Of a stretch of 64,000 nt of DNA, positions 39,943-58,704 are shown piece by piece (the first letter of the stretch is position 1; the number at the start of each line of letters is the position of its first letter). The DNA is taken from the NCBI RefSeq assembly GCF_900119085.1, contig NZ_FPIQ01000003.1, positions 62,001-126,000 of the forward strand, read 5' to 3'. Source of the stretch: Nitrosovibrio sp. Nv17. GTDB lineage: Bacteria; Pseudomonadota; Gammaproteobacteria; Burkholderiales; Nitrosomonadaceae. The position numbers and the translations under genes were made by a program. The notes below the pieces were generated by a model. It searched no databases and had not been told where the DNA came from. It worked only from the letters and a program-made list of their open reading frames with translations.

Positions 39943-39988
39943 ATTGTGCTGCGCCTGCGCTCGGGAGGGAATGCGGCAAATTGTCGCA
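39943..39988 (-). promoter_or_regulatory. palindrome promoter P1 (fecI-fecR-receptor)
   Basis: Read on the minus strand: palindrome TGCGACAATTTGCCGCA (39988-39972), -35 TTCCCT, 17 bp, -10 CACAAT (39948-39943). Transcription would start near 39936, 26 bases before the fecI ATG. Confidence 0.7.
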
Positions 39989-40084
39989 GAGCAGAGTCTG
40001 CGGCGATCCTGGCTTGCCACGACCATCGTCGCAGCGCCGGGGAAAATGCGTGTCGCCTCGTGTCCCGACGAACCATCCGACGGA

Positions 40085-41299
40085 CTAAGGTAGCTGCTCC
40101 GACATCACAGGAAGCCCCGCTTCCCGCTCCGGCCCGGGTGCGCCCGCAGAGCGCTGTGCCAACCTGTAGAGGGATTCCAGGTTACCCAGCGTCATCGTCA
40201 CGTCCGCACGATAGGTGCCCGGACTCTCCTGGGCCAGCTTCTGGTAGAGCTCCAGGGCTTCCCGAAATGCGGTCTCGGCCTCCTTGTAGCGCCGGCTTTC
40301 GCCGTAGAGCGCGCCCAGGTTGTTCAGAGTCATCGCCATATCGGGCCGATACGTGTACGGGTTTCGCTGCGCGAGGGCGCGATAGAGTTCCAGCGTCTCG
40401 CCGAATGCGGACTCCGCCTTCTGGAACTCCCTCGCATGGATGTGCAACGCCCCAATATTGTTCAGTATGCCCGCCATGTCGGCAAGGTAGGGTTGGCGTC
40501 CTTCCTCCGGCAGTGCGCGGTAGCGTGCCAGCAACCGATCGTATACAGCGGCGGCCTCCGCCGACCGGCGCTCGTCCTGCAGGATCCGGGCCAGGGAAAA
40601 GGCGATTCTGGCGTCATCCGGCTGCAGGGCGTGCGCCTTCTCCAGGTCGGGCAATGCCGCACGGTAGCGGAACCGCAGCATCTCGACCAGTGCCAGGCCG
40701 AAATGGCGCGCTCCCAGCAGCGGCTTCTCCACGGCGGACTCCCTGGATGCCGATCGCAGCAGTTCCGCCGCTTTCTGCAGATCCAGGCGATGCAGCGACG
40801 CCCGGATGGACCGGGCAGCTGGGCCGGGGAGGCGCGCCCTTTCCAGTTGATCCACGAACTCGTCGTAGCGCAGCTTCCACTGCTGCGCCTCCGAGACCAG
40901 ATCCGCATCCGGCCGCGCGCCATCCCGTTCGACCAAATCCGTGACCAGGCGCTTCAGGTGCAACGCGTCCTGACCGAACCTCCGTTCCTGCGCGCTTCCT
41001 GGCCCCAACGTCGCATAGAGGGTATCCAGCAGCACATTCACCGCATCGACCAGGTGCGCCTTGCCGGCACGCGATCGACCCGCCCTCGCGTGCAGCGCAT
41101 GTACCCTGGACATGATCTCCCTGAAGAACCCCGGGGGCAGCTCGCAAGTGGCTGACGGCTGGAAATTTCCCTCCGCATCCACCTGGGAGAATGCCGGTAC
41201 GCAACGCCCGGAAATGCTGGGGGCGTTTTTTGCCGAGACACTTGCCATCGCGCCTGCGAGGGCAAGGAAGGCCAGCATCCTGAAAGAAGGCATGCTCAT
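40085..41299 (-). CDS. secreted TPR-repeat protein
   Basis: A 404-residue protein with a signal peptide (MSMPSFRMLAFLALAGAMAS) and, after a helical central part, TPR repeats from about residue 240 to 385 (ALPDLEKAHALQPDDARIAF, LNNIGALHIHAREFQKAESA, LNNLGALYGESRRYKEAETA). The start overlaps the stop of the preceding fecR-like gene by four bases, so the two are co-translated. TPRs suggest a periplasmic protein-binding partner of that FecR; this pairing is not a standard one known to me. Confidence 0.75.
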   Translation of the reverse strand: MSMPSFRMLAFLALAGAMASVSAKNAPSISGRCVPAFSQVDAEGNFQPSATCELPPGFFREIMSRVHALHARAGRSRAGKAHLVDAVNVLLDTLYATLGPGSAQERRFGQDALHLKRLVTDLVERDGARPDADLVSEAQQWKLRYDEFVDQLERARLPGPAARSIRASLHRLDLQKAAELLRSASRESAVEKPLLGARHFGLALVEMLRFRYRAALPDLEKAHALQPDDARIAFSLARILQDERRSAEAAAVYDRLLARYRALPEEGRQPYLADMAGILNNIGALHIHAREFQKAESAFGETLELYRALAQRNPYTYRPDMAMTLNNLGALYGESRRYKEAETAFREALELYQKLAQESPGTYRADVTMTLGNLESLYRLAQRSAGAPGPEREAGLPVMSEQLP

Positions 41300-42246
41300 T
41301 TCCGATGCTGCCGCAGGGCAATGCGGGCGAGCCAGCCGGTGTAGTGCCGGGCGTAGACCGGCAGCGCATGCTCCAGCAGTTCCAGCGCCGCATCGGGATC
41401 GTCGGCCGGCAGCACGCCGGTGAAGCGCAGTCCCGCCGCCTCCGTATCGAGCCTGAGGTGGCCTTTGCGGTATCGTCCGAGATCGGCGATCACCTGTTCG
41501 AGCGGCGTATCCTCGTACACCAGCCTCGCCTGCATCCAACTCGTCGCAGCAGGCGGCAGCGCCTCGACCTTGCCCATGTGCCTGCTGCCGAGGCGCACGC
41601 TCTGTCCCGCCTCCAAGGAAACGGAATGATCGGGACGGCCATGGCTCGTCACGAGGACGCGTGACTCGATTGCACCGACCAGGCTCTCGCCATCCGATTG
41701 CCCAACCACGTAGCGGGCGCCCTGCGCCCGCGACACGCCATCCCGGCTCTCGACCAGGAACGGCCGCCTGGCCACCCGGCCGTCGGGCGCAACGTTGATC
41801 ATCAGGCGCCCGCTCCGCAGGATCAGGCGGCGCTCGCGCTCATTGAAGGCGATGTCCACGGCGCTTCCGCTGTCGAGCACCAACTGGCTGCCGTCCACCA
41901 GCCGGATCTCCCGGATTTCACCCACGGTGGCACGCTCATCGGCGAGCCATTCGTCCCACGGCAGCGCATACGTCGCGCATACGGTCAGCAGGATGCTCAA
42001 CAGCGAGGCGATGCTTCTGCCTGGGCAGGCGACCTTTCCTCCTGAAACCTCGCTCGCCTCCTGGTTGGCGATCGTCAGCGGCTGCCACAAGCACTGCGCC
42101 TGCTCGTAGAGCGTCCGATGCCGGGGATCCTCCGCCAACCAGGACTCGAACGCCGTGCGCTGCTCGGCGCTGACTTCATGGGCCGACATGTTCACCACCC
42201 AGGCTGCCGCCTGTTCGATCACCGGAAGTTGCCGGGTATCGGCCAT
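41296..42246 (-). CDS. second FecR-type regulator, without a neighbouring sigma factor
   Basis: A 316-residue protein of FecR layout: DUF4880-like N-terminus (AAAWVVNMSAHEVSAEQRTA), a membrane helix near 85-100 (SLLSILLTVCATYALPW), a FecR domain (REIRLVDGSQLVLDSGSAVD) and a C-terminal STN-like domain (LEQVIADLGRYRKGHLRLDT, ALELLEHALPVYARH). An AAGGGAG site precedes the ATG. No ECF sigma gene is adjacent; instead it is coupled to a TPR protein. A palindrome promoter lies about 160 bp upstream. Confidence 0.85.
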   Translation of the reverse strand: MADTRQLPVIEQAAAWVVNMSAHEVSAEQRTAFESWLAEDPRHRTLYEQAQCLWQPLTIANQEASEVSGGKVACPGRSIASLLSILLTVCATYALPWDEWLADERATVGEIREIRLVDGSQLVLDSGSAVDIAFNERERRLILRSGRLMINVAPDGRVARRPFLVESRDGVSRAQGARYVVGQSDGESLVGAIESRVLVTSHGRPDHSVSLEAGQSVRLGSRHMGKVEALPPAATSWMQARLVYEDTPLEQVIADLGRYRKGHLRLDTEAAGLRFTGVLPADDPDAALELLEHALPVYARHYTGWLARIALRQHRK

Positions 42247-42411
42247 GGGAATCTCCCTTGAAGAGAGCGCGCAAGAAGATGGCCGGATCGACGCGGATCG
42301 CGATGCCTGCCCGCACAGGAGGAGGAAACACGGTCGGGCAGAGGCACATGCGCCGATTCGGCCCTCAGATAACCATTCATCATTGATCGCCTCATGAGGA
42401 TGCGTCGATTC

Positions 42412-42457
42412 AGTATGCCTACAAAATGGTGTCATGAAAATGCGGCAAATTGCCGCA
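42412..42457 (-). promoter_or_regulatory. palindrome promoter P2 (fecR2-TPR)
   Basis: Minus strand: TGCGGCAATTTGCCGCA (42457-42441), an almost perfect palindrome, then -35 TTTTCA, 17 bp, -10 CATACT (42417-42412). It drives the second fecR gene starting at 42246. Confidence 0.72.
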
Positions 42458-42649
42458 TGAGACCGATGTCCAATGACATTTAAATATCGTGTCAGGCAAC
42501 TGGAAATCCACAGAGTCCGCAGCAGGGAAATGGCGATAAAGGAAAGAAAGGGTTCGGGACACACGGGGGGTAGTGCCACGAACCCAAAGAGTAAAGGAAT
42601 GATGAAACTTGAAACAACTGCCATGCAACGATGCTGCGGTACTACAACT

Positions 42650-42757: not shown

Positions 42758-42765
42758 TGGCAATC

Positions 42766-42811
42766 AGGATAGCCCACGATCCTTCCTTTGGGAATGTGGC
42801 ATAATGCCGCG
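42766..42811 (-). promoter_or_regulatory. palindrome promoter P3
   Basis: Minus strand: CGCGGCATTATGCCACA (42811-42795), -35 TTCCCA, 17 bp, -10 TATCCT (42771-42766). It fires towards fecR2 from about 520 bp away, in front of promoter P2, with only a possible short peptide frame between. The rest of 42247-42856 holds no recognisable gene. Confidence 0.62.
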
Positions 42812-42856: not shown

Positions 42857-44119
42857 TCATGGTGCGGAATCTCCATTCCCGGTGAAATCATCGACGATGA
42901 TCCTTCCGCCGGATATGACGAGTCCCGGGTATTCCAGGCGTTTGAGATCATGGTCGATGCTGCCCCTGACCGCGATGACGTCCGCCGGCGCACCTGGTTG
43001 CAGGGTACCCAGCAGGGGTATCCCGAGATGCCTGCCGGCCTCGGAGGTTGCCGCGCGCAGCACGTCCAGCCGTTCCATTCCCGCCATGTCCATCATGTGC
43101 ATCAGCTCCTGGGCGTTGATTCCCCAGGGAATGTCGGGATGGGCGATTTCCGCTCCGTAGAGGATCGCGCCACCAAGCCCTGCCCAGATCCCTATGTTAC
43201 GGGCGATGCCGGAACATGCGGAAAGAGTGTCCAGCGTGGTCACCATCACCACGCCCTGGGCCGCCGCTTGCCTGAGCAGTGGCTCGGGGATGGGCTCGCA
43301 GGGCACATGGGCCCACTCGTCGACTCCTGCCTGGACGGCGATGCGCACACCACGCTCCTCGGCCACATGCGCAGTCACCTTGCGGCCATGCTGGTGAGCC
43401 TCCTCCACGATCGCCTTCACGATATCCACCGGGAGCAGCGGCCATGGCTGCCCACGCATGCCGGGAGACGAAGTGGAGCTTCCGTGGCTATGACCGTGGT
43501 CGTGACCGTGACCGTGGCTTGACGCCCAGGGTGCGCCCGCCTCGCCGCCGGGTTCGAGCGCGATCTTGATCACGACGGCTCCATCGGCAATCAGGACACC
43601 TACCGTCTCGCGCGCCTGCTCTGCGGTGGAGATGGGAATCGCGATGCCATCCTGCCCCAGCATGGGAATGGGGTACCCTCCCGGAGCCGTGAGAATCGGG
43701 CCGGAGGTGAACACGCGCAGGTGGCCGTCGCCGCCGGAAGGCCTCCGCACAGGGCCGCCCACGTCGCGCAGCGTGGTGATGCCGTGCTTCAGCACGACCT
43801 TGCCCGGGATCTTCCTGAACAGAAGGTGAGCGTGCAGCTCGATGAAACCCGGCAGGATGGTTGCATCGCCAAGGTCGAGAATTCTCGCATCGGGGAAGTC
43901 GAGCGCGGCCGCCGGACCGATCCCGGTCACCCGTCCTTTCGCCAGCAGTATGGCCGCATTCGCGTGGAAGGCATCGCCGTCGAATATCCGCGCCGCGCGC
44001 AACAGCAGAAGTTCGCCTTGCGCCCATGCCGGGTTGCCCGGGATCATGGAAAACGCCACAGCCGCCGCATACAGGCAGAAAAGAAGATGCCTGCCCCGGT
44101 AAAGAACAACATTCGTCAT
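42857..44119 (-). CDS. secreted metal-dependent amidohydrolase with His-rich loop
   Basis: A 420-residue amidohydrolase-superfamily enzyme with a signal peptide ending near WAQ. Metal-binding features: GFIELHAHLLF (HxH), a Lys in VVIKIALEPG at the carbamate position, and His residues in KVTAHVAEERG and DEWAHVPCEP. Between the Lys and the next His lies an insertion rich in His and Gly (SHGHGHDHGHSHGSS) that should bind nickel, zinc or copper. It is the last gene of the run starting with the PEP-CTERM proteins. The substrate is unknown; relatives hydrolyse imidazolone or peptide-like amides. Confidence 0.82.
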   Translation of the reverse strand: MTNVVLYRGRHLLFCLYAAAVAFSMIPGNPAWAQGELLLLRAARIFDGDAFHANAAILLAKGRVTGIGPAAALDFPDARILDLGDATILPGFIELHAHLLFRKIPGKVVLKHGITTLRDVGGPVRRPSGGDGHLRVFTSGPILTAPGGYPIPMLGQDGIAIPISTAEQARETVGVLIADGAVVIKIALEPGGEAGAPWASSHGHGHDHGHSHGSSTSSPGMRGQPWPLLPVDIVKAIVEEAHQHGRKVTAHVAEERGVRIAVQAGVDEWAHVPCEPIPEPLLRQAAAQGVVMVTTLDTLSACSGIARNIGIWAGLGGAILYGAEIAHPDIPWGINAQELMHMMDMAGMERLDVLRAATSEAGRHLGIPLLGTLQPGAPADVIAVRGSIDHDLKRLEYPGLVISGGRIIVDDFTGNGDSAP

Positions 44120-44171
44120 ATCATCCCCTCTTGTTCGCGATGGATGCTTCCCACATGGCCGGGCGCATCCA

Positions 44172-46109
44172 TCAGAAGCTCGCAGACAGGCCGATCTGTC
44201 CCCAGCGCCCCGGCATGGGATATCCCGGACGATAGGCGTAGTCTTCATCCAGGAGGTTCTCCATGGCCACGAAAATCTCGCCCCGCCTGCCGAGCATCGG
44301 CAGGCGATGGGATACGCGCGCGTTCATGATCACGAAGGAGTCGACCTTTTCTAGATTGGCCGCGCCCGCTTCCCGTGCCCGGCTGAGCGCGGCGATGCTG
44401 GATTGATACTGGGTGTCGACAGTGAGGCGGATGGGGCCCACCTGCCCGCTGATGCCTGCCGTGACGGCGCGCCTGGGCGTATATGGCAGGTTGTCGATCC
44501 CGGGGTCGAGCAGTGTCAGGCCGCCGAACACCGTCCAGCTGGCGGTAATGTTCTGCCGGATCATCACTTCCGCGCCTTTCATCGTGTAGGCGCCCAGGTT
44601 GATGAATTGGGGCGGGGGCGGGACGTTCGGCGGGAACCCGAATACGTAGCGGTTCCTCACCCGGTCGACGAACACGCTGGCGTCGAACTGAGTGGATTCC
44701 CAGGGTGTCAGCCTCACGCCGACCTCGGCGTGGTCGAGTTGTTCCGCGGCGAGCTGCTTCCAGCTCTGGCCCAAAGGAGGAATCAGGGAGGACAGCAGGG
44801 GCGCTTCCAATCCCGGGTAGTTGATGCCGCGCGATACGTTCCCGAACAGGGTGATCTTTTCGGAAATCAGCGACAGGCCGGCATGCGGCGAGGTGCGGGT
44901 GCGGAATTGGCTGTGGTCGTAGACACGGATGCCGATCGCGGGCATGAGCACCCAGCCCCGGCCCAGGTCGACCTGCTGGCTCAGGGCGAAATAGGGCGAG
45001 GTGACTCGGAAAGCCGGCGCATCGAAACTCCCCTGTGGCGCCGGCGCTATCCGGTTGAAACGCACGTCGCCGGAGATCCAGTCGCTGTCCAGACCAGCCG
45101 TGATGGTCCCTCCCTTCCACAGGGAGAATTCCTCCTTCCAGCGCAGGCCGGTCATCTCGAAATTGGAAAGCGTGTCCCCGTCCATGCCCGGCTGGTGCAG
45201 CCAGTTGCCTTCGCCCCGGTTGTGATAGGCACGCAGGCTGCCACGCCAGCCGCCATGATGATGCGAGATGAAGGCGGTGACCATGCCTGCCTCGGTATTG
45301 TACCGGGGCGCCACGGCAGGCGCGGGCACGCGATTGTCGCCCGGATCGCGAGCCCGGTTGCCGACATAGAGAAAGCTGGCGCCCGCGGACCAATGGGTAT
45401 TCAGCTGCAGGCCGACGCGCCCCATCACATTGTTCAGTTCACCGTCCGCATTGGCCCGGTGGCCGCTGGAGCGGGCATGCCCCTGCGCCAGCATGAAATC
45501 CACGTCGCCCCAGCGACCGACCAGGTCCGCCTGTTCGATGAAGGTATTGTAGTAGCCTCCCGATATCCTGCCGCCGACCTGGATGCCGTCTCCGGTGGCA
45601 CGCTTGGTCTCCAGGTTGATGGATGCGAAGTTGTTGCCGTTGACCTGCGGCTGCGGACTCTTGTGGACGGTGATCGACTGCATGCCGTTCACCGGCAGCA
45701 GATCCAGCAGGGGATGATTCCACACGCCCATGTAGAAGGGCACGCCGTCGATATAGGTCTTGATCTCGCTTCCGGGCCGGCTCACACCCATGCCACGGAT
45801 GTAGACGGCGCCCCCCTGGTCTCCCCCGAAACCGCCGACGGGATTGTAGCGGGATATCTGTACTCCCGGCGTGCGGCGCAGCGCCGTGGCCAGGTCGAAT
45901 GCATTCTGGTCGCGCAGCTGGCTCTCCGTGACTACCGCGGACGTGCTGGAAAAGGGATCGATACGGACGTGATCGATGATCGGGTTGGCGGTGACGTCGA
46001 CGGTCGGCAGGGTTGCCCCCGGGGCCGGCGCCACGTCCTGTGCCGGTACGATCCCGGGATAGGCTGCGGCAAGAACGAGGAATGCTGCATTGATCCGGAT
46101 TGCTTTCAT
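44172..46109 (-). CDS. TonB-dependent receptor
   Basis: A 645-residue receptor with signal peptide (about 1-23), a plug with VYIRGMGVSRPGSEIKTYID and GMQSITVHKSPQPQVNGNNF, and a barrel ending GRWGQIGLSASF with terminal Phe. There is no STN domain, so it transports without FecR signalling. It lies between a diheme peroxidase and an amidohydrolase in one direction, suggesting that all three handle one imported compound or metal complex. The ligand cannot be read from the sequence. Confidence 0.9.
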   Translation of the reverse strand: MKAIRINAAFLVLAAAYPGIVPAQDVAPAPGATLPTVDVTANPIIDHVRIDPFSSTSAVVTESQLRDQNAFDLATALRRTPGVQISRYNPVGGFGGDQGGAVYIRGMGVSRPGSEIKTYIDGVPFYMGVWNHPLLDLLPVNGMQSITVHKSPQPQVNGNNFASINLETKRATGDGIQVGGRISGGYYNTFIEQADLVGRWGDVDFMLAQGHARSSGHRANADGELNNVMGRVGLQLNTHWSAGASFLYVGNRARDPGDNRVPAPAVAPRYNTEAGMVTAFISHHHGGWRGSLRAYHNRGEGNWLHQPGMDGDTLSNFEMTGLRWKEEFSLWKGGTITAGLDSDWISGDVRFNRIAPAPQGSFDAPAFRVTSPYFALSQQVDLGRGWVLMPAIGIRVYDHSQFRTRTSPHAGLSLISEKITLFGNVSRGINYPGLEAPLLSSLIPPLGQSWKQLAAEQLDHAEVGVRLTPWESTQFDASVFVDRVRNRYVFGFPPNVPPPPQFINLGAYTMKGAEVMIRQNITASWTVFGGLTLLDPGIDNLPYTPRRAVTAGISGQVGPIRLTVDTQYQSSIAALSRAREAGAANLEKVDSFVIMNARVSHRLPMLGRRGEIFVAMENLLDEDYAYRPGYPMPGRWGQIGLSASF

Positions 46110-46236
46110 GGAATGACCATCGTGGTTGGAAAGAAGTTGATCCGCGGGGCATGCCGGAAACATCCCGAATGCATTCGCCCGCGCCTAAAAGGACGCGGGA
46201 GTCGAATCGGATATTCCCGGGTGCCGCCGGGCTGGT

Positions 46237-48444
46237 TTACCAGGGAAGCAGGCGTTCGAAAGGCTCCAGCGGCTCGGATCGTCCTTCCGCGCCCACGGCA
46301 GGGATCAGCAGGAATTCGTCGCGGCTCAGATCCGGCCCGAGCGGGTTCCCGCCCTCGGTCCTGTAGCCATCTCCCGCATGGCCATGGACGACGGCGAGCT
46401 CGGGATGATCGAAAGGCGCCCGCTCGTACCGGACCCGCTCATCCGTCAGGCTTTTCAGGAAGTTCAGCAAATCCTGCCGGATGCCGGCATCCATCTCCAG
46501 CTCCGGCTGGGGAAACACGAAACCGAACTGCTTGCCGGCCCCTTCGAAGTTGCCGCCCCGCGCATAGAACTCGATCACCTCCTCGAGGGATGCCATGCTG
46601 CCGTTGTGCATGAAAGGGCCGGTCAGCTCCACGTTCCTCAGCGTCGGGATCTTGAAGGTGCTGTCCACGACGCTCAGCATCCGCTTCGTGTCGGGATCGG
46701 CCAGCTCCGCGGAGGCCACCTCCGGCAGCGGCACGAACGCGCTCGTCAGCGAGCGGCAGTCCGTCAGCGGCTGCGCCTGGGGCTGGATGCCGTTGGCCCT
46801 GGTGAAGAAGAGCGGATGATTGTTGTTCAGGCTCATGGCGATGGGCACCTGCAGGTCGCAGGGACGGATTTCCGCGACGGCCGCATCCCTGACGCCTGAC
46901 AGGTTGCCCGTCAGGTATTCGAGGTACTGCTCGGAATAGGACAGGGGATTGCCGAAGGCATCCTGCGCCGCCAGCCCCGGATCCCACTCGTCCTCTCCGA
47001 CGCCCGTCGACGCGAACCCGGTGTCGACGAAACCCGTACCCTTGAAGGTGGGCGTGCGGGTGATGACGTTGTGGGTGGTGCTGATGGTGAAGGTCTCGTT
47101 GCCGAAGGCGCGCGGATTCGATTTCACCAGCCTCGCGTTGGTGTCGACCGCCGCCGCGGTGAACACCGGCCCGATGTGGCACAGATTGCAGTGGGCGACG
47201 CGGAACGCCTGCATGCCGCGTATCTCCGAGGCCGTGAGGTCGATCGGGATCAGGTTCGCGTCGCGCCGGCTGCGATCGAAGGGTGAGTCGTCGGAAACCA
47301 GCGTCGACTGGTACAGTTGCAGCGCCAACCCGAAAAACATGGCGAAATTCGCCTCGAACTGGTTGTAGGCCAGGGGAACCTGGTCTTCCGCGTTCGGCGC
47401 GGGCCGCCCGAAAGGCCCCCGCTGGCCCGAGGACCAGTACTTGGGATTGAACGCCTGCCGCACCAGGTGGACGTAGTAGGTGTTCAGGCCGGGCGCCAGG
47501 TTGCCCGGAGTGCTCATGCTGTAGGCGCCCAGCACGCTGTCGTTCCAATGGACCTTCTGCTTTTCCAGGGGGCGGCGCCACATGAGCTTGCGTCCCAGAT
47601 CGGCCAGGGTCCGCCCCTCGCAGCTCATCTCCACCGGATCGGTGGCAGGCGCCACGGCCTGCGAGGCCAGCGCGGAATTGACCAGGTTCAGACGCTCCCT
47701 GACGACGGCGCCGCCCTGCCTGACCCAGACACCGGCAGCGGAATCGCGTGCGCCCCATTCGCTGCTGCCGTTGAACACGTTGTTGGCGCGCCCATCCCAG
47801 AAGTTGCGGTGGTTGAACACGGCGTTGATGACGGTCGGCGCGTTGCGCTGCATGATCCGGCGCGTGCCGAGGGACCGGACATGAAAGACGGGATCCCCCG
47901 CATGGCGGCAATCGTCGTCGCTGCCCTCGTCCAGGTGCACCTTCCTGAATACGCCGCCGAACGTACCCGCCGACGCGACCACGTCGTCCGACACCCGGAC
48001 GAAGGGCGACTCCCGGTGAGGATCGCTGACCTGCGTCAACGGGAAATCGCGGCGTCTCAGCGTCGAGTTGGGCCCGCGGAGCTGTCCGTCCATACGCTCG
48101 TACATGCCGCCGGACTGGACCATCCCCTTTCCGGTAGGCGATATCTGGTTTTTCACGCGCGCGTCCGCCCCGGCGTGAAAATGGCAGGTGGCGCAGGCCA
48201 TGCCGTCGCTGCCGACAGCGGTATCCCAGAACAGGGCCTTGCCCAGGACGATGGCTTTCCGCTTGTCGATCACGATCGGGTCGGGGCCGTCCAGCAGACC
48301 CGGCACTTCTGGTACGGGGGCACCCTTGAGGGAGACCGGCACCGGTCCCAGGTGGGCGGACGCCTGGAACATCGTTCCCAGGCAGAGCAGCGGCACGCAG
48401 GCAACGGCCAGGATGCGCGCCAGGCTCGTGGAATATGCAATCAT
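46237..48444 (-). CDS. large diheme cytochrome c peroxidase/MauG-like protein
   Basis: A 735-residue secreted protein with two heme c motifs: CATCHFH (Cys84, Cys87, His88) and CNLCHIG (Cys419, Cys422, His423), plus the GPFMHNGS element near the C-terminus that supplies a distal ligand in CcpA/MauG proteins. It is about twice the usual length, with long insertions between the hemes. The start overlaps the stop of the PEP-CTERM gene before it by four bases. Members either reduce peroxide or oxidise residues in a partner protein, as MauG and MbnH do; coupling to a PEP-CTERM protein favours the second idea (inference). Confidence 0.85.
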   Translation of the reverse strand: MIAYSTSLARILAVACVPLLCLGTMFQASAHLGPVPVSLKGAPVPEVPGLLDGPDPIVIDKRKAIVLGKALFWDTAVGSDGMACATCHFHAGADARVKNQISPTGKGMVQSGGMYERMDGQLRGPNSTLRRRDFPLTQVSDPHRESPFVRVSDDVVASAGTFGGVFRKVHLDEGSDDDCRHAGDPVFHVRSLGTRRIMQRNAPTVINAVFNHRNFWDGRANNVFNGSSEWGARDSAAGVWVRQGGAVVRERLNLVNSALASQAVAPATDPVEMSCEGRTLADLGRKLMWRRPLEKQKVHWNDSVLGAYSMSTPGNLAPGLNTYYVHLVRQAFNPKYWSSGQRGPFGRPAPNAEDQVPLAYNQFEANFAMFFGLALQLYQSTLVSDDSPFDRSRRDANLIPIDLTASEIRGMQAFRVAHCNLCHIGPVFTAAAVDTNARLVKSNPRAFGNETFTISTTHNVITRTPTFKGTGFVDTGFASTGVGEDEWDPGLAAQDAFGNPLSYSEQYLEYLTGNLSGVRDAAVAEIRPCDLQVPIAMSLNNNHPLFFTRANGIQPQAQPLTDCRSLTSAFVPLPEVASAELADPDTKRMLSVVDSTFKIPTLRNVELTGPFMHNGSMASLEEVIEFYARGGNFEGAGKQFGFVFPQPELEMDAGIRQDLLNFLKSLTDERVRYERAPFDHPELAVVHGHAGDGYRTEGGNPLGPDLSRDEFLLIPAVGAEGRSEPLEPFERLLPW

Positions 48445-49367: not shown

Positions 49368-49516
49368 TTTCTCTTTCCCTCGATCCACCGCCGGCTTCAC
49401 GGGACCCGTGTTCACGCCCGATACGGCGCGATCTCCGGAATGCCCGCGAGCGGCTTATCCTTATGTTTCATGGGAGGGAAAAGCCGGGCTCCGGCCTCTC
49501 CTTCCAATCACCCGGG

Positions 49517-50377
49517 TCAATCGGAGCGGCGGCGGCGCGACATGGCGCCCAGCAAGCCCAGGCCGGCCAGCAGCATGGCGTAGGACTCCGGTTCGGGCAC
49601 GGCGGAGACGGTCAGGTTCATGCCGGTGGTGGCCAGGGCATGATCCGCCCCCCCTGCGAAGACGACGTACCAGCCAGGCTGCAGGTTGGTGAAGGACAGC
49701 TGCGCCCAGTTGCTTCCGACAGCGCCCGTGACGCCGCTCTCGTAATCGTTCGTGATGCTGACGTCGAAGGCGCCATGCTGGACGCTCTCGCCCCAGCCGC
49801 CGACAGCCTGGGCGGCACCGGCATTCGCATAGCCGAGGGTTTCCTTCATGTTGCCGTAGACCGTGCCGGTATCGGGATCATGGCTCATCCAGTAGGTGCC
49901 GAAGTCGCCCAACTGGCCCACGGCGTTGAAGGAGTGCGGCGAGTCCCAGCCATTGGTCGCAATCTCGTGATCGACCGCGGATTCACCCCCATCGAACTTG
50001 GCATCGCCCGATGTCCATACGGTGAAGGCCGGCTTGAACGCTGCCTCGGCGGCCGACGGTGCCAGGTGAACGGTCACGTCCGCCGCGCTCGTGAGCTGGA
50101 AAGTCCACCAGGGGGATCCGCCGGCATGAGCCCAGGCCGAGCCGGCCAGCTGGGGATTGGCCGAGTAGTTGCTCTTGGGCAGGTCCCGGGTCGCGTTCAG
50201 CGCGCTACCGGCGGCAAGCGTGGGTGTACTACCCACGCCGCCGTCCCAGTCACGGAAGTCGATGGCATTGTCCGCAAGCGCGGCGGGGCTGAAAGCGATG
50301 ACGAGCGCACTCGCCAGGGCGGTGCGCAGGAAGACGTGCCGGCTGGCCGGGACCTTCTGCTGCTTGATGGATTTCAT
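49517..50377 (-). CDS. PEP-CTERM protein, family A copy 2
   Basis: A 286-residue paralogue of the preceding protein, with AWAHAGGSPWWTFQLTSAAD, FKPAFTVWTSGDAKFDGGES, NGWDSPHSFNAVGQ and SNWAQLSFTNLQPGWYVVFA, ending VPEPESYAMLLAGLGLLGAM-RRRR. The start MKSIKQQKVP follows GAGGGAA. It is the first gene behind palindrome promoter P4, which probably drives the whole leftward run to 42857. Confidence 0.87.
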   Translation of the reverse strand: MKSIKQQKVPASRHVFLRTALASALVIAFSPAALADNAIDFRDWDGGVGSTPTLAAGSALNATRDLPKSNYSANPQLAGSAWAHAGGSPWWTFQLTSAADVTVHLAPSAAEAAFKPAFTVWTSGDAKFDGGESAVDHEIATNGWDSPHSFNAVGQLGDFGTYWMSHDPDTGTVYGNMKETLGYANAGAAQAVGGWGESVQHGAFDVSITNDYESGVTGAVGSNWAQLSFTNLQPGWYVVFAGGADHALATTGMNLTVSAVPEPESYAMLLAGLGLLGAMSRRRRSD

Positions 50378-50473
50378 GGGTGGATTCCCTCGATGACATT
50401 TCAATGAAGACGCCCGCGGTGGCCTCTCGTTCCTGTCGGCCGTCGGGCACGCGGCGCCGATATGGCGCCCATG

Positions 50474-50519
50474 TATGTTACGTCTGCGTGCCTTCAAGTC
50501 AATGTGACAAAATGCCGCA
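50474..50519 (-). promoter_or_regulatory. palindrome promoter P4 (PEP-CTERM/peroxidase operon)
   Basis: Minus strand: TGCGGCATTTTGTCACA (50519-50503), -35 TTGACT, 17 bp, -10 AACATA (50479-50474), about 95 bp upstream of the PEP-CTERM start. The same palindrome could also serve the rightward sulfotransferase: TGTCAA at 50520 and TAAAAA at 50543 are 17 bp apart on the plus strand. Confidence 0.68.
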
Positions 50520-52304: not shown

Positions 52305-52350
52305 TGCGACGATATGCCGCATTGACCTGCGCATGATGCTGTCCGATACT
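52305..52350 (+). promoter_or_regulatory. palindrome promoter P5 (candidate small RNA)
   Basis: TGCGACGATATGCCGCA at 52305-52321, TTGACC at 52322-52327, 17 bp, GATACT at 52345-52350. No conserved gene lies downstream; only about 165 bases separate it from a strong terminator. Confidence 0.68.
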
Positions 52351-52356
52351 GGCCGC

Positions 52357-52520
52357 ATCACGCCGGAGCGAACAGTGGCGTGCGGCCCGAGCAAGGATCC
52401 GGCCTGACGTTCGTACTCCTTCTATTCTTCCCTTCCTGCGCCTGGCGCTTTCTCGCTCAGGGAAACGCCCATGGTTCATGGCGGCCAACAAGCCCCCTGC
52501 GAGCCGCCATGAACCATTTT
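52357..52520 (+). ncRNA. candidate small RNA of the palindrome regulon
   Basis: Starting about seven bases after the -10 of P5 and ending in the terminator at 52471-52520, a transcript of about 165 nt is predicted. Its only frames are short: a 10-codon GTG frame after GGAG, and a longer GTG frame (52380) that reads through the terminator and is unlikely. It overlaps no gene; the mtrB-like gene ends 56 bases further on the other strand. Confidence 0.45.
52471..52520 (+). terminator. strong intrinsic terminator
   Basis: A perfect 15-pair stem (ATGGTTCATGGCGGC at 52471-52485 and GCCGCCATGAACCAT at 52503-52517) is followed by a T-run (52517-52520, then CTCT). The stem may also stop the convergent mtrB-like transcript. 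Confidence 0.75.
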
Positions 52521-52576
52521 CTCTGCGCCCTTCCCGGCCCGGGTGTGCGCCCGTCGCTGGTTCCGGTCTTTTCCGC

Positions 52577-54646
52577 TCACCAGCTGTAGTATCCCGATAT
52601 GCCGATGAAGTGCACGACCTGGTTTGGATTCTGGCTGAGCCGGGTTCCGTCACTGAAGGTCCAGCCCGTCCAGGTCCACTCGTCGGTACGGAAGCGGTTG
52701 TGGATATAGTCGAGGCGCAGGCCCGCATTCTTCAGCAGCGCGTACTTCGCGTACAGCCGCATGTTGACGAGTTCCGTGGAGATGTTCGGCAGCGAAGCGA
52801 TGGCAGGGCCCGCGAGCGCCCGCTGCCTGTACCGGTCGGTAATGTCGGAATAGTACACGTCGCTCCCGACGTCCAGCCTGTGGCTGGGCTTGCCGTTCGC
52901 GCTCAATCCGAACGAATTGCTGCGGTTGCCCAGTGCTGCCGCCCAGAGCCTTCCGCCAGCCGTGGCCGGATCGGTGCGCGACAACTGCTCCAGGCGGGTT
53001 TCGTTGCGTGAATACCAGAGCGTCGCCTGCCACGCGTCCGAGAACGTGTAGGTCGCATCCAGGGCATAGTCCCGCGACATGCCCGCCTGCGGCCCCAGCC
53101 GGCCGGCGTCCGGATGCCGGTAGTCATCGCGCGATTCACTCATCGCAAACTGCAGCGTCAGCGGATCCATCGGCGTCCAGGTGATCGAGGCGCGTACCCG
53201 GTGGCGCGAGCGGTCCGCGAGATTGATGGGCGATACCAGGTCAGGATAGCCTGGCGTCGCCGTGCCCATGAAGCCGGAGCCGTCGCGATCGCTGTGGATG
53301 TAGGAGATCGATCCGGTGAGCGTCTCGGACATCGAGCGGCGCAGCTCGACGCGGTAGGATCGTTCGTCGGTGCGCGGCCGGTGGCGCACGACGATGGGGA
53401 TGCCATACTCGCGCCGTCTCTGGTCGAAATCCAGGCCGCCGGTGAGACGCAGGCCCGCGGGCAGGGCGTAGCTCGCCTCCAGGCGGGCATTCAAGGTTTT
53501 CATGGAGAACGGCTGGTTGATGCCGAGATAGCCGTAGTTGCCGGTTGCCAAGGGGTTGTAGTCGAGGATGGGCGTCCTGTCGTCGCGATCCTCGTAACGG
53601 ATGTTCGCCAGCAGGGAAAGCTTCGGCAGCGGACGTGCGGTCACGCCGCCTTGCAGCAGCAGGGTGCCCACCCTTCCCCGCAGGCTAGTCCCGATGCCGG
53701 GCGTGAGCAGCGGCACGCCGGCGAAGACGTTGTTCTGGGTGGCGTGCGTGTACGCCGCCTTGAAGGTGCCGCGGGTGGTCGGCGTCAGGTTGTAGCCGCC
53801 CGTCACGAAGACCTGGTGCGACTGGTTGTCGGGCGGTAGCGCGATGGGCGTGTAGGCATTCAGCGCGTTTCCGCCGCCCACGGGGCTGCCGCCCGCGACG
53901 TCGAGCGCCGTGTAGCGATTGTCGTACACGGTGCCGTAGTAGCCGGCGGACACCTGCAGGCGCTTGCCGCCGTAGCCGAGGGTGGCGCCGAACTGCCGGG
54001 TGGTGGAGTTGATCGGCTCGGGAACGAATTCGAAGACTCCCGCCAGGTTGGGACGCGTGCCGCGCCCGAACACGCGCGCGCCGTCCTTTTCCTCGTTGCG
54101 GAAGTACAGCTGCAGGTCCAGCTTCCCCGCGAAGCTCCGGTTGACGCCGAAGCCGACGGCGCTGCGCTCCGTCTTCAGGACATGGGGCTCGCCCGGGCGG
54201 GATGGAAAGGGAATGGCGGGCGTGGGACTGCCGATGCCCGTCACCGCGGTATGCACGGTGAACGGCTCGTAGCGCGGCGTCTGGCTGAAATCGATATGGT
54301 ATCCCCAGCTGCCCTGGCGCCGGTGCTCGAACCGCAACTCGCGGTTGTCGAACCCAAGGTTGCGGCCGGTGAGCCTGAGCCAGGTACCCGACGCGTCGAA
54401 GCGCCTGGCGGCATCCACGTTCAGCAACCCGTAGGCGCCCTCCTCCCGCACGCCGCTGTACTGGCCGAAGCGTATCCCGTCGCTGGACAGGTAGCCTGTC
54501 CCGATCTCGACGGTGCCCCCCGGCCGGGTCAACCGCAACAGGCGCTCGCCATCGGCCCCGGCCTGCGCCGCCGAAGCCAACCCCCAGGATAGCGGCAGTA
54601 CGGCGGCGACCGTGAGCCGGAAGATTCGCCGATATCCCGGACTCAC
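52577..54646 (-). CDS. MtrB/PioB-family outer-membrane beta-barrel (MtoB-like)
   Basis: A 689-residue porin with signal peptide (about 1-29), a body of amphipathic strands with repeated GxFxAxYTHATQN and RAxITWTP-type hairpins, and a C-terminal Trp (ISGYYSW). MtrB/PioB/MtoB proteins form the sheath through which a periplasmic decaheme cytochrome passes electrons across the outer membrane. No Cys is seen, so the N-terminal CxxC of Shewanella MtrB is absent, as expected for a PioB/MtoB type. It starts 12 bp after the decaheme gene. Confidence 0.85.
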   Translation of the reverse strand: MSPGYRRIFRLTVAAVLPLSWGLASAAQAGADGERLLRLTRPGGTVEIGTGYLSSDGIRFGQYSGVREEGAYGLLNVDAARRFDASGTWLRLTGRNLGFDNRELRFEHRRQGSWGYHIDFSQTPRYEPFTVHTAVTGIGSPTPAIPFPSRPGEPHVLKTERSAVGFGVNRSFAGKLDLQLYFRNEEKDGARVFGRGTRPNLAGVFEFVPEPINSTTRQFGATLGYGGKRLQVSAGYYGTVYDNRYTALDVAGGSPVGGGNALNAYTPIALPPDNQSHQVFVTGGYNLTPTTRGTFKAAYTHATQNNVFAGVPLLTPGIGTSLRGRVGTLLLQGGVTARPLPKLSLLANIRYEDRDDRTPILDYNPLATGNYGYLGINQPFSMKTLNARLEASYALPAGLRLTGGLDFDQRRREYGIPIVVRHRPRTDERSYRVELRRSMSETLTGSISYIHSDRDGSGFMGTATPGYPDLVSPINLADRSRHRVRASITWTPMDPLTLQFAMSESRDDYRHPDAGRLGPQAGMSRDYALDATYTFSDAWQATLWYSRNETRLEQLSRTDPATAGGRLWAAALGNRSNSFGLSANGKPSHRLDVGSDVYYSDITDRYRQRALAGPAIASLPNISTELVNMRLYAKYALLKNAGLRLDYIHNRFRTDEWTWTGWTFSDGTRLSQNPNQVVHFIGISGYYSW

Positions 54647-54658
54647 GCCGCATGCCCC

Positions 54659-55630
54659 CTACCGCTGGAACAGGCGCTCGTTGCGCTCGTCCAGGGGACT
54701 GTTGCTGCCGTGGACCTGCGTATGGCAGTTCAGGCAGCCGCGCGCCAGGGTGTTCTTGTCGCGCCCGCCGGTGGCGGCGAGCGATCCGATGCTGCCCTGG
54801 TGGGTGCTGGGCTCGTGGCACTCCTGGCACAGAAAGGGGGTGCGCGATCTGAGCATGCCGGGCGCGGTGGTGCCGTGCGGGTCGTGGCAGATGGCGCAAT
54901 TCTCCTGCACCGGCTGGTGGTTGCGTACGAAGGGACCGCGCTTCTCCATGTGGCATGCATAGCAGGTATCGTTGATGCCGTCGCGCACCATCATGGCAGG
55001 CCCTGCGGATCCATGCGGGTTGTGGCAGTCGGAACAGGCGATCTTGCCCTCCCTGATCGGATGGCGGTAGGGCCGGTTCACCTGGATGCGCTGCGCCTTG
55101 TGGCAGGTGAAGCACACCTCCGACTGGGTCAGGCGGTCGCGCACCCGGTCGTGGGAAGCATGTATCCGGTGACACGAGGTGCAGGCTACGTCCCGGTTGG
55201 CATGATTGCCGCCGGCCCAGTGCATGCGTGAGCCGCCCTGATGGCATCCCAGGCAGGGTTCGCTGCGCTCGTCGGACGACTGGGATGAATCCCTGCCGAA
55301 CCAGCGGTCGGGATACGGATGCTTTTCCGGCGCATCCGCATGGTCGCCGCTTTCGCCATGGCACGCGGTGCAGGTCGGGGTACGGCTGTCGGCCAGGGTA
55401 CCGTGCGCGGTCCGCCCGATGGCAAGGACGGGATACTTCTCGTCTTCGTCGTGACAGCGGGTGCACTTGGCATCGCCCCGCAACACCTTGTCCTGCGCAC
55501 GCACTCCCGCCATCCTGTCGACATCCTGCGCCGCCACAGACGGGAATCCGATCGCCATTCCCAGCGCCAGCGCCGCCGCCAGGCAGAGGCCTGCAACCAT
55601 GATCGGCCATAGGCTGCGCAAACAGATCAC
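54659..55630 (-). CDS. decaheme c-type cytochrome (MtrA/MtoA/DmsE family)
   Basis: A 323-residue secreted cytochrome with exactly ten CxxCH motifs: CTRCH, CTACH, CLGCH, CTSCH, CFTCH, CSDCH, CYACH, CAICH, CQECH and CLNCH. The spacing matches the DmsE/MtrA family. A GTG start at 55630 is used; an ATG ten codons on would also leave a signal peptide. With the MtrB-like porin it forms an outer-membrane electron conduit. No outer-surface MtrC-type cytochrome is encoded nearby, which fits Fe(II)-oxidising MtoAB/PioAB conduits as well as metal reduction. Confidence 0.92.
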   Translation of the reverse strand: MICLRSLWPIMVAGLCLAAALALGMAIGFPSVAAQDVDRMAGVRAQDKVLRGDAKCTRCHDEDEKYPVLAIGRTAHGTLADSRTPTCTACHGESGDHADAPEKHPYPDRWFGRDSSQSSDERSEPCLGCHQGGSRMHWAGGNHANRDVACTSCHRIHASHDRVRDRLTQSEVCFTCHKAQRIQVNRPYRHPIREGKIACSDCHNPHGSAGPAMMVRDGINDTCYACHMEKRGPFVRNHQPVQENCAICHDPHGTTAPGMLRSRTPFLCQECHEPSTHQGSIGSLAATGGRDKNTLARGCLNCHTQVHGSNSPLDERNERLFQR

Positions 55631-55759: not shown

Positions 55760-55805
55760 AGTGTACCGCACACGATATGCTCCGGGAATGCGGCATATTG
55801 TCGCA
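55760..55805 (-). promoter_or_regulatory. palindrome promoter P6 (decaheme-porin operon)
   Basis: Minus strand: TGCGACAATATGCCGCA (55805-55789), -35 TTCCCG, 17 bp, -10 TACACT (55765-55760), about 130 bp upstream of the decaheme start. Its palindrome is identical in sequence to that of P7, placed 46 bp away in inverted orientation. Confidence 0.75.
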
Positions 55806-55851
55806 GCGGACGCTTGCAGCTCATGCCGCTGGCCATTGCGGACCGGGCAAC

Positions 55852-55897
55852 TGCGACAATATGCCGCATTGACGAGCCACCCCTTCCAATCAATACT
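55852..55897 (+). promoter_or_regulatory. palindrome promoter P7 (spermidine-synthase-like gene)
   Basis: TGCGACAATATGCCGCA at 55852-55868, TTGACG at 55869-55874, 17 bp, AATACT at 55892-55897. It fires rightwards, divergent from P6; the first gene starts at 56070. The intergenic region 55631-56069 holds no other gene. Confidence 0.78.
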
Positions 55898-56069: not shown

Positions 56070-57647
56070 ATGACACAGGACCCTTCAAGCCCCCGACCTT
56101 CCATCACCGCCGACTCCCACGGCGATACCGACGCAAGGATGCCGTTATATGTTACGGTCATGATCACCGGCGCAGCGGTGATGGTGCTGGAACTCCTGGG
56201 CGCCCGCATCATCGGTGCATTCTACGGCGTCAGCCTCTACGTCTGGTCCTCCATCATCGCCGTGACCCTCATCGCGCTGGCGCTGGGCTACTACGTGGGG
56301 GGAACCATCGCGGACCGCCTGCCCGGGATACGGCTGCCGCATGTCATCCTCCTGGCGGCAGCGGCCACGCTAGCCATCCCGTTCGCGGCGTCCGCCGTGC
56401 TCGGCGCCACCGACTCGTGGGGCATGCGCATGGGCGCCTTCGCCAGCGCCCTCGTTCTGTTCACCCTGCCCCTGACCAGCCTGGCGATGGTGGGGCCGTG
56501 CGTCATCAAGCGCTCGACATGGAATCTCCGGCACGTCGGCACCGCCTCGGGCGCGGTTTACGCCATCAGTACGGTCGGCAGCGTCGCGGGCACGCTGCTG
56601 CTCGGCTTCTACCTGCTGCCGCAATTCGGCACCCGCAGCGTGATCTTCGCCCTCAGTCTCGGGCTCGTGGCCCTCGCGGCCATCCTGGCGCTGGTGGACC
56701 GCCCCCCCGGCACCCGCCGCTTCGACGGCTGGCCCACACTGGCCGCCGCCGCGCTCCTCGGCAGCCTGACGCTGGCCGGCTTCGCGCAGGCTCGCGACAG
56801 GGTGCCCGGATTCAATCTGATCCACGAAAGCGAGAGCCACTACGGCTGGGTGAGGGTGGTGGTGGACGAGGCCAACGGCTTCCGCCTGCTGCTGTCGGAT
56901 GCTTCTGTCATCAGCGCGGTCGACGAATCAAGCGGCCGCAGCATCCTGGGCTATCAGGCGATCCTGAGGGTGCTGCCGCTGTTCCGGCCGCATACCCGGC
57001 AGGCGCTGCTGATCGGCCTGGGTGGCGGACACGTCGCGCGCGACCTCGCGGCGGCGGGCATCGAGACCGACACCATCGAGATCGATCCGGAAGTCGCCGA
57101 CGCCGCGCGCAATCACTTCGGCTTCCGTCCGACCGGGGCCTTCGTCGTGGGGGACGCGCGCTACGAGATCAAACGCCTGCCGAACCGGTACGACTACATC
57201 ATGCACGACTGCTTCACCGGCGGCTCCGAGCCCGTTCACCTGCTCACCCGCGAGATGCTGCTGGAATTGAAGGCGCTCCTGAAGGACGATGGCATCCTGG
57301 CGCTGAACTACGTCGGATTCGCCTCGGGCGAGGGCTCCCAGGCGGTCGCCGCGGTGCGGCGGACGCTGCAAAGCGTATTCCCCCACCTCCGGGTCTTCAC
57401 CACGGTCAAGAAGGATTTCACCGACTTTGTCTTTCTGGTCTCCCGGCAGCCGCTGGAACTGGACCGTACGAACCACGATGGCGCGCAGTGGCTGCTCGAC
57501 CAGGAATATGCGGGATCCTTCGGCGCGGGCATCATCCTCACCGACGACCACAACCCGCTCGAGCGCTGGCAGACCCGCAAGTCGGAAGCCTATCGTACGC
57601 TCTTCATGGAGCGCATCGACCCGAGGATGCTGATGCTGCTCGGATGA
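56070..57647 (+). CDS. membrane-fused spermidine-synthase-like protein
   Basis: A 525-residue protein: about seven membrane helices (residues 25-235, beginning MPLYVTVMITGAAVMVLELL) fused to a spermidine-synthase-type Rossmann domain with ALLIGLGGGHVARDLAAAG, the acidic IEIDPEVADAARNHF and DYIMHDCFTGG. Such fusions are annotated as MFS/polyamine aminopropyltransferase, but the substrate of the membrane-bound forms is unproven. No ribosome binding site precedes 56070; a start at 56139 (after AAGG) would remove a disordered 23-residue tail. It is under promoter P7. Confidence 0.83.
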   Translation: MTQDPSSPRPSITADSHGDTDARMPLYVTVMITGAAVMVLELLGARIIGAFYGVSLYVWSSIIAVTLIALALGYYVGGTIADRLPGIRLPHVILLAAAATLAIPFAASAVLGATDSWGMRMGAFASALVLFTLPLTSLAMVGPCVIKRSTWNLRHVGTASGAVYAISTVGSVAGTLLLGFYLLPQFGTRSVIFALSLGLVALAAILALVDRPPGTRRFDGWPTLAAAALLGSLTLAGFAQARDRVPGFNLIHESESHYGWVRVVVDEANGFRLLLSDASVISAVDESSGRSILGYQAILRVLPLFRPHTRQALLIGLGGGHVARDLAAAGIETDTIEIDPEVADAARNHFGFRPTGAFVVGDARYEIKRLPNRYDYIMHDCFTGGSEPVHLLTREMLLELKALLKDDGILALNYVGFASGEGSQAVAAVRRTLQSVFPHLRVFTTVKKDFTDFVFLVSRQPLELDRTNHDGAQWLLDQEYAGSFGAGIILTDDHNPLERWQTRKSEAYRTLFMERIDPRMLMLLG

Positions 57648-57662
57648 AAATCTTTTGTCATA

Positions 57663-57708
57663 TGCGACAATATGTCACATTGATTATTCCGATTGCTCCG
57701 CTAATATC
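57663..57708 (+). promoter_or_regulatory. palindrome promoter P8 (PEP-CTERM family B copy 1)
   Basis: TGCGACAATATGTCACA at 57663-57679, TTGATT at 57680-57685, 17 bp, AATATC at 57703-57708, 69 bp before the next ATG. Confidence 0.72.
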
Positions 57709-57776
57709 CTCCTGCGCAGGAGAAAAATCGTTCCGGCGCTTCCGTTATCGACAATCCTAGATTAAAGGGAATATCC

Positions 57777-58580
57777 ATGAACAAGACAATCAGATACGCA
57801 ATGCTCCTCGCCGGCATGACGTCGCTGCCGGCCATGGCACATATCGGCTATGGCGGGCGCGACTTCGGCAGCTTCGACGGCACCCTCGGCGCCTCACAGA
57901 CCATCGCCAACCAGTCGGCCACCGGTAATTTCGGCTGGATCGACGGCACTGATGCCGACTGGGGCGACAGCCACCGTCTGCGCGCCTACCGCTTCACGCT
58001 GACGGAAGACGCGACCGTGAACATCTCATTCCAGGCACAGGTATTCACGCCCGCCCCCACCGAGGCCAATCCCAATCCCACCGCCGTGGAAGGCGGCCTG
58101 ATTCCCGGGTTCTCGCTCTACGCCGGGCTGGCTCACGTTGCCCCGTTCGGCGCGGATCATGACGGCGGAGCCGGTTCGGTCGCCATACGCGACGCGATCG
58201 CGGGCGCCGGCAACACCGAAGGTTCCTTCCGGGCATTGACCGACTGGGCCATCACCAACGACAACAATGATCCCGCCAGCCAGTTCACCTATATCGGCCA
58301 CATCTACGACGGCCTGGGCGTGGACTACGGCACCGGCCTCATTGCCGGCGCCGACGGCGTCGCCGACCAGTACGTGTCGAGAACGTTCTCGCTGGCCGCA
58401 GGCGACTACTCCATCTTCGTCGGGGGCGCCGACTACGCCAACCAGGACATCCTGCCACTGCTGCCCTACGGCGTGTCCGGCACGGTCGCCGTGGTGCCGG
58501 AGCCCGAAGCGTATGCCATGCTGCTGGCCGGCCTGGGCCTGATGGGCGCCATGGTGCGGCGACGCGCCGGCAGAGGCTGA
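57777..58580 (+). CDS. PEP-CTERM protein, family B copy 1
   Basis: A 267-residue protein with signal peptide MNKTIRYAMLLAGMTSLPAM, a body with DADWGDSHRLRAYRFTLTED, GLIPGFSLYAGLAHVAPFGA and AAGDYSIFVGGADYAN, and the sorting tail VPEPEAYAMLLAGLGLMGAM followed by VRRRAGRG. The body is a pre-peptidase-like beta sandwich by its FTLTEDATVNISF strand pattern. It starts after AAGGGA and has its own palindrome promoter. Its tandem paralogue follows. Function unknown. Confidence 0.87.
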   Translation: MNKTIRYAMLLAGMTSLPAMAHIGYGGRDFGSFDGTLGASQTIANQSATGNFGWIDGTDADWGDSHRLRAYRFTLTEDATVNISFQAQVFTPAPTEANPNPTAVEGGLIPGFSLYAGLAHVAPFGADHDGGAGSVAIRDAIAGAGNTEGSFRALTDWAITNDNNDPASQFTYIGHIYDGLGVDYGTGLIAGADGVADQYVSRTFSLAAGDYSIFVGGADYANQDILPLLPYGVSGTVAVVPEPEAYAMLLAGLGLMGAMVRRRAGRG

Positions 58581-58658
58581 CGCAACCAATCCTGGTGTCT
58601 GACCGGGAGAAATCCATCGCCAGTTCAGGCACCAGACCCGGCAGATGACGCCGCCGCC

Positions 58659-58704
58659 TGCGACAATTTGCCACATTGACTTGCCTTCGACCGCAATCGA
58701 TACT
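58659..58704 (+). promoter_or_regulatory. palindrome promoter P9 (PEP-CTERM family B copy 2)
   Basis: TGCGACAATTTGCCACA at 58659-58675, TTGACT at 58676-58681, 17 bp, GATACT at 58699-58704, 85 bp before the next ATG. Confidence 0.75.

Follow-up and report, generated by a model that had tools for sequence, protein, structure and literature searches.

A palindrome fused to the -35 box as the predicted operator of a RegA/PrrA-family regulator in Nitrosovibrio sp. Nv17

Which regulator acts on a palindrome that recurs, directly in front of the -35 box, at nine promoters of one stretch of DNA? The stretch (hereafter the window, to whose positions window coordinates refer) comprises 64,000 nucleotides of contig NZ_FPIQ01000003.1 of Nitrosovibrio sp. 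Nv17, and a first-pass annotation made from its letters had described the nine sites, had known of no regulator for them and had noted that none is encoded nearby. The last point is literally true, because the genes in question, regBA, lie on another contig (C9); the lack of a known regulator did not hold, since the palindrome matches published PrrA and RegR boxes and stands before regBA. We conclude that the palindrome is very probably the operator of the RegA/PrrA/ActR-family regulator encoded by regBA, which would mediate redox-sensed activation, from a position centred at -44, of genes for metal uptake, surface proteins and electron transfer. The sites of RegA/PrrA, a global redox regulator that has attracted much study, have been hard to predict. 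With a strict, scannable box in a fixed register, the RegA regulons of a large bacterial group could be predicted; in ammonia oxidisers, metal uptake, surface proteins and a possible conduit for extracellular electron transfer would come under a concrete, predicted redox control.

The palindrome and its promoter register

The sites conform to a 17-bp palindrome with the consensus TGYGRCA-N-WW-TGYCRCA. Scanning the window with up to three mismatches yielded 13 strand matches at 10 places, and 100 shuffled windows gave a mean of 0.55 matches and a maximum of 3. Genome-wide (2.84 Mb), the pattern TGYGRCANWWTGYCRCA with at most one mismatch identified 16 places, 11 of them exact, and the reversed pattern none at the same threshold. 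Ten of the 16 places are on the contig of the window and nine within it; these are the nine palindromes of the first-pass annotation, each found again at its place, two of which (42795 and 52305) are one base off the degenerate pattern.

Both the sites and their register can be observed directly. The palindrome is followed immediately by TT at all nine window sites, and at seven of them the place exactly 17 bp past the -35 box is taken by a hexamer whose second base is A and whose sixth is T. The identical geometry that had been proposed thus stands for seven sites; at 50503 (AACATA) and 57663 (AATATC) it is one base off, the better hexamer lying at 16 bp (TAACAT and TAATAT, respectively). For the latter promoter, which precedes the PEP-CTERM gene 57777-58580, six same-genus homologues read TTGATT-17-AATACT. 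Four sites of the Nv17 genome outside the window show the same geometry: TTCTCG-17-TATCCT on contig C16, TTCCCC-17-TACACT at C30:128107, TTCCTT-17-GATAAT on C32 and TTCCAC-17-CACACT on C35.

An offset profile was compiled from both flanks of every site, with no orientation chosen. Among the 16 Nv17 sites a -10-like hexamer occurs at offset 23 in 10 of 32 flanks, where the average offset has 0.5 (binomial P ~4e-11, a test that treats sites as independent, which those of relatives are not). The same offset stands out in the same genus (35 of 104 flanks, mean 3.1, with lesser peaks at offsets 20 (18) and 3 (12)), in a second genus (23 of 64, mean 1.8) and outside the family, both away from regB (16 of 67, mean 1.9, the next-highest count being 8 at offset 40) and at regB (7 of 20, mean 0.6; 5 at offset 22). 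TT at offset 0 was seen in 13/32 Nv17 flanks, 37/104 of the same genus and 30/64 of the second genus.

For a set of 100 sites (16 from Nv17, 52 from the same genus and 32 from the second genus, those of relatives taken from regions fetched for seven genomes of the same genus and two of the second rather than from all matches) we applied a looser promoter test, namely TT plus at least three of six -10 matches at the register spacing in one orientation. It was passed by 70 sites, including 12 of the 16 from Nv17; the others are 50503 and the places on contigs C9, C19 and C52, and the places on C9 and C19 lack a good -35. A single site in 100, the C52 place, falls inside a called gene, where the call, from a home-made gene caller, is weak. 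The first-pass annotation had held that one motif is tied to promoters and had named a motif equally frequent inside genes as the result that would speak against this; on the fetched loci the outcome was the opposite.

The palindrome ends exactly where the -35 box begins, without overlap, and this fixed register fits the direct contact with RNA polymerase that had been suggested. Base frequencies were taken from the 70 selected promoters, so that TT and the -10 bases in them are partly there by construction. The third base of the -35 box is C in 36 of the 70, and only 12 begin with TTGA; most -35 boxes are therefore weak, as expected for activator-dependent promoters.

Dimer sites directly upstream of the -35 box, with sigma region 4 in reach, are typical of class II activation, for which CRP at -41.5, the LuxR box at -42.5 and lambda cI at -42 are examples; here the centre is at -44 and the protein family is another one. 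Since CRP/FNR proteins are common redox regulators and bind at a similar position beside the -35 box, an activator of that family at the class II position could be considered as the regulator. CRP/FNR sites, however, have other half-sites and another spacing than this odd 17-bp palindrome with GCGRC halves, and the gene linkage found is that to regBA (no search was made for linkage to CRP/FNR genes), which makes such an activator extremely improbable.

Linkage of the palindrome to regBA

The reading in which the regulator is an unknown one was rejected when the genome-wide sites led to a regB-like kinase gene. The end of the site at C9:39463 precedes this histidine kinase gene, as called, by 39 bases; next comes a gene for a 189-aa response regulator (P0003), the single RegA match at E 1e-20 in the Nv17 genome. 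The best NCBIfam model is NF033792 (ActS/PrrB/RegB) for the kinase, with 270 bits against a cut-off of 350, and NF033791 (ActR/PrrA/RegA) for the regulator, with 192 bits against a cut-off of 250. Because both proteins score under the cut-offs, the assignment draws in addition on gene order, the effector domain and RegB features. The response regulator combines a receiver with a Fis-like helix-turn-helix, and the latter aligns (E 1.5e-10) to 1umq, which we take to be the PrrA effector domain. The kinase encoded beside regA carries the motif GGxxNPF, presumably the RegB quinone site, in 74/74 loci and a conserved Cys267 in 75/75 aligned rows. A quinone site and a redox cysteine are named as features of RegB in the accessible part of PMC5506826.

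From a RegA protein search of named genomes, the best 80 of 143 regA loci were analyzed. The closest belong to Nitrosospira and Nitrosovibrio (80-86 percent identity), and the remainder mostly to Nitrosomonas, with a few other beta- and gammaproteobacteria; Nv17 is thereby placed with the ammonia oxidisers of the Betaproteobacteria. The palindrome with at most one mismatch is present in 67 of these 80 loci and exact in 30; the 646 kb that they span hold 69 sites, 67 of which lie ~1.3-1.7 kb upstream of regA, and no match to the reversed pattern. In the 63 loci with both a site and a recognised RegB frame, this frame opens between -167 and +291 bases from the site, which places the site at the start of regB and the palindrome at the regBA operon.

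Within the family (125 genomes) the exact motif and RegA are each found in 123 genomes; with RegA nearly universal there, presence and absence are uninformative, and a sample of the class was used instead (276 genomes; 275 after exclusion of Nv17, 94 RegA-positive and 181 RegA-negative). The motif is present in 51 of the 94 RegA-positive versus 11 of the 181 RegA-negative genomes (Fisher P 5e-19, uncorrected for relatedness), and the reversed pattern in 10 and 11, respectively. Among the matches listed, which cover 37 RegA-positive genomes outside the family, 16 genomes show a site at 1.0-2.6 kb upstream of regA. Co-occurrence with a single regulator gene, which the first-pass annotation had named as support, is thus observed directly, both at the regA loci and across genomes, as is the link to regBA itself.

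The sites also agree, again as a matter of observation, with the boxes given for RegA (SSGNVRDNHYSNCSS), PrrA (YSCGGC(5)GWCRMA) and RegR (GNGRCRTTNNGNCGC) in the accessible part of PMC5506826. The R. capsulatus RegA box, which is loose, fits 11 of the 16 Nv17 sites exactly. The PrrA box fits eight exactly and, if one mismatch is allowed, 15, a level reached by 0.0002 of random 17-mers; over the 100 sites the numbers are 28 and 96. The RegR box fits 15 of the 16 with one mismatch and none exactly. The Nv17 sites lie 0-2 mismatches from the published PrrA and RegR boxes.

With the RegBA/PrrBA/ActSR/RegSR systems of Rhodobacter and Bradyrhizobium, the Nv17 system shares adjacent kinase and regulator genes, an inverted repeat of the GCGNC type and a site at the regBA operon. 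It differs in the constant spacing of its 17-bp palindrome (a variable spacing of 0-10 is given in the part of PMC5435760 available to us), in the fixed register beside the -35 box, and in its targets, among which FecIR, TonB receptors, PEP-CTERM proteins and a decaheme conduit take the place of photosynthesis or nitrogen fixation. According to the available text of PMC4263372, chromatin immunoprecipitation sequencing of PrrA gave no strong consensus. The RegBA system of Acidithiobacillus ferrooxidans is similar in that RegA binds mostly upstream of the -35 box and controls iron and sulfur oxidation genes, but the accessible part of PMC5506826 reports no common motif for it, unlike the single clear palindrome seen here. 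Of interest are a strict palindrome with a fixed -44 register in a family reported with degenerate sites, the tandem 17-bp arrays and, in ammonia oxidisers, a set of targets new to this regulator. Among the matches listed for the open-licence literature, and judged by these listings, we found no paper on RegBA in Nitrosospira or Nitrosomonas, and in the available text of an N. mobilis paper (PMC7308568) RegA and RegB are absent as whole words.

A Fis-type or NtrC-type regulator such as PrsR might instead bind the palindrome, with RegA merely sharing the site at regBA. PrsR is present in the Nv17 genome (C26) and above cut-off in 22 of 23 genomes of the genus, several boxed targets are PEP-CTERM genes, and NtrC-type sites, too, are palindromes of 16-17 bp. 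PrsR-type proteins, however, work with sigma-54, whereas the palindromes abut sigma-70-type -35/-10 pairs at fixed spacing. Sigma-54-like sequences with up to two mismatches follow the sites in 5 of 200 flanks, compared with 5.2 percent of 2000 random stretches, and are not enriched; the sites examined do not serve sigma-54 promoters, as would be required, from what is generally held of the PrsR regulon, of its members. None of the 16 Nv17 sites is on the PrsR contig, and the motif stands at regBA in many genomes and matches PrrA boxes, so that binding by such a regulator is very unlikely.

Several observations nevertheless weigh against RegA as the cognate regulator. Two genomes of the family (G004 and G008) have RegA and no exact site, and two others (G002 and G055) have sites and no RegA match; in the class sample the motif is carried by 11 RegA-negative genomes and its exact pattern is missing from 43 of the 94 RegA-positive ones, with a test uncorrected for relatedness. 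Thirteen of the 80 regA loci have no site, 12 of them despite the presence of the regA upstream region, and in one (L034) the contig ends too early. At regB, a strict -10 test revealed no peak at offset 23 towards regB, with 12 of 69 on the other side. The looser hexamer TANNNT does occur at offset 23, towards regB, in 59 of 69 cases, with a conserved TAATGT in 47; offset 18 shows TANNNT too, in 42 of the 69, and the regB site of Nv17 adjoins a poor -35, TGGCCG; the regB promoter may use the same register with a weaker -10, or another start. The two NCBIfam scores fall short, as given above, and RegA of Acidithiobacillus did not match the published motifs according to the accessible part of PMC5506826.

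Predicted activation at -44 and tandem sites

In the mechanism that we propose for RegA, the membrane kinase RegB, with its GGxxNPF motif and conserved cysteine, would serve as reporter of the quinone pool's redox state and as the kinase of RegA. Bound to the palindrome, a RegA dimer would cover -52 to -36, with its centre at -44, and, to judge from this position, would touch region 4 of sigma-70, a contact that would stimulate promoters whose -35 boxes, 17 bp from the -10, are mostly weak. The predicted regulon of this Nitrosospira-like ammonia oxidiser would include regBA, fecI and fecR2, TonB receptors, PEP-CTERM proteins, an EpsA-family regulator and an MtrAB-type conduit. We infer that RegA binds and is phosphorylated, that it activates rather than represses and that it responds to a redox signal, the last two points by analogy with the RegA family.

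RegA could also bind and mainly repress, blocking or locking RNA polymerase next to the -35 box until the redox state changes. RegA-family proteins are known to repress as well, as described for fdp in the available text of PMC7561615, and the regB site of Nv17 sits on a poor -35. Repression as the main effect is nonetheless unlikely: the palindrome stops at the -35 start instead of overlapping it, most -35 boxes are of the weak kind described above (C as third base in 36/70, TTGA in 12/70), and in Acidithiobacillus RegA mostly binds upstream of the -35 box (PMC5506826, accessible part).

Among 25 close pairs of palindromes with at most one mismatch, 19 repeat head to tail with an exact period of 17 bp, in up to four copies in a row. 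Tandem palindromes were noted at L180:2521-2588 and in 16 further close pairs in relatives. Such arrays would fit multimerisation of RegA on DNA, which is reported for Acidithiobacillus in the accessible part of PMC5506826. More broadly, we lean towards the view that the RegA family in beta- and gammaproteobacteria has a single canonical operator, hitherto regarded as degenerate, in the form of a 17-bp palindrome that is fused to the -35 box, is centred at -44 and often recurs in tandem at an exact 17-bp period for RegA polymerisation along DNA. In ammonia oxidisers this arrangement would then link the redox state of the quinones to sigma factors of iron signalling, to TonB receptors, to PEP-CTERM proteins of the surface and, in some lineages, to an outer-membrane electron conduit.

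Target genes in the window and in relatives

The promoters with a predicted RegA box in the window, and the genes that they precede, are as follows (ECF, extracytoplasmic function; ORF, open reading frame).

39943-39988, minus strand: fecI-like promoter (palindrome 39972-39988; -35 TTCCCT 39966-39971; -10 CACAAT 39943-39948)
39404-39910, minus strand: fecI-like ECF sigma factor gene, 168 aa
38352-39338, minus strand: fecR, followed by a TonB-dependent receptor gene (35899-38319, minus strand), both downstream of the fecI-like gene
42412-42457, minus strand: fecR2 promoter (palindrome 42441-42457; -35 TTTTCA; -10 CATACT 42412-42417)
42766-42811, minus strand: second predicted promoter, 549 bp upstream of fecR2 (palindrome 42795-42811, one mismatch; -35 TTCCCA; -10 TATCCT)
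41296-42246, minus strand: fecR2 (FecR, DUF4880), then a TPR protein gene (40085-41113)
50474-50519, minus strand: PEP-CTERM/peroxidase promoter (palindrome 50503-50519; -35 TTGACT; -10 weak AACATA at 17 bp, better TAACAT at 16 bp)
42857-50497, minus strand: likely operon, judged by strand and spacing
49517-50497, minus strand: PEP-CTERM gene of the operon, ORF taken from the first start codon; the true start is probably inside
48441-49415 and 46237-48444, minus strand: PEP-CTERM gene and MauG/CCP-like gene of the operon
44172-46163 and 42857-44047, minus strand: TonB receptor gene and amidohydrolase gene of the operon
52305-52350, plus strand: gap-facing promoter of a candidate RNA (palindrome 52305-52321, one mismatch; -35 TTGACC; -10 GATACT)
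55760-55805, minus strand: promoter of the MtrAB-type conduit (palindrome 55789-55805; -35 TTCCCG; -10 TACACT)
52577-55630, minus strand: MtrAB-type conduit, with a DmsE-family decaheme cytochrome (54659-55630) and an MtrB/PioB-family barrel (52577-54646)
55852-55897, plus strand: promoter of a fused MFS/spermidine-synthase-like gene, 56139-57647 (palindrome 55852-55868; -35 TTGACG; -10 AATACT)
57663-57708, plus strand: promoter of the PEP-CTERM gene 57777-58580 (palindrome 57663-57679; -35 TTGATT; -10 AATATC at 17 bp or TAATAT at 16 bp)
58659-58704, plus strand: promoter of the PEP-CTERM gene 58789-59586 (palindrome 58659-58675; -35 TTGACT; -10 GATACT)

The fecI-fecR-TonB receptor order recalls FecI/FecR/FecA surface signalling, with the difference that here the sigma factor gene itself has a predicted RegA box. 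At 52305-52576, a full predicted RegA-box promoter points into a gap that is convergent with the mtrB-like gene and contains only short ORFs; for the candidate small RNA at 52351, neither an Rfam family at gathering score nor a terminator was found. A site with three mismatches at 61051-61067 lies 21 bp before a TonB-copper-like receptor gene (61089-63170; below the model's cut-off), with no -35/-10 at the usual register.

The union of metal uptake, extracellular electron transfer and surface proteins proposed in the first-pass annotation holds for this genome at the level of the motif; its electron-transfer part is lineage-specific. The decaheme gene is boxed in both own-genus carrier genomes, Nv17 and G109, the latter (L206) with a pair of sites, one having TTCCCA-17-TACACT, in an arrangement similar to that of Nv17. 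In the second genus no site was found at the decaheme gene in the 18 loci read (20 of 29 matches were fetched, and three further carrier genomes were unread), and a general decaheme link was rejected on these 18 loci. The first-pass observation itself is right and stronger than had been claimed.

Outside the window, the boxed Nv17 genes are regBA, a BNR-like gene that precedes a TonB receptor gene, a DUF6607 gene and the gene for an EpsA-family regulator; a further one (L018:8136) is a relative of the BNR-like gene without a Pfam match. The EpsA-family (XrtB/PEP-CTERM) regulator gene, at L021:1372-2396 on C35, has a RegA-type promoter; a general link to EpsA was rejected, with a site at 0 of 24 other EpsA loci. 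A one-mismatch palindrome at L020:9787-9803, close to a cytochrome c gene, is flanked by two genes on the minus strand and has no recognisable promoter.

Grouped by BLAST, the boxed genes include nine BNR-like members (two from Nv17), eight PEP-CTERM members (two from Nv17) and TonB receptors in groups of five and four. A thioredoxin-like group of six shows weak AhpC/TSA similarity in two of the three members scanned. A further group consists of six second-genus proteins with sigma-70 region 4 (6/6 scanned), which are probably FecI-like ECF factors.

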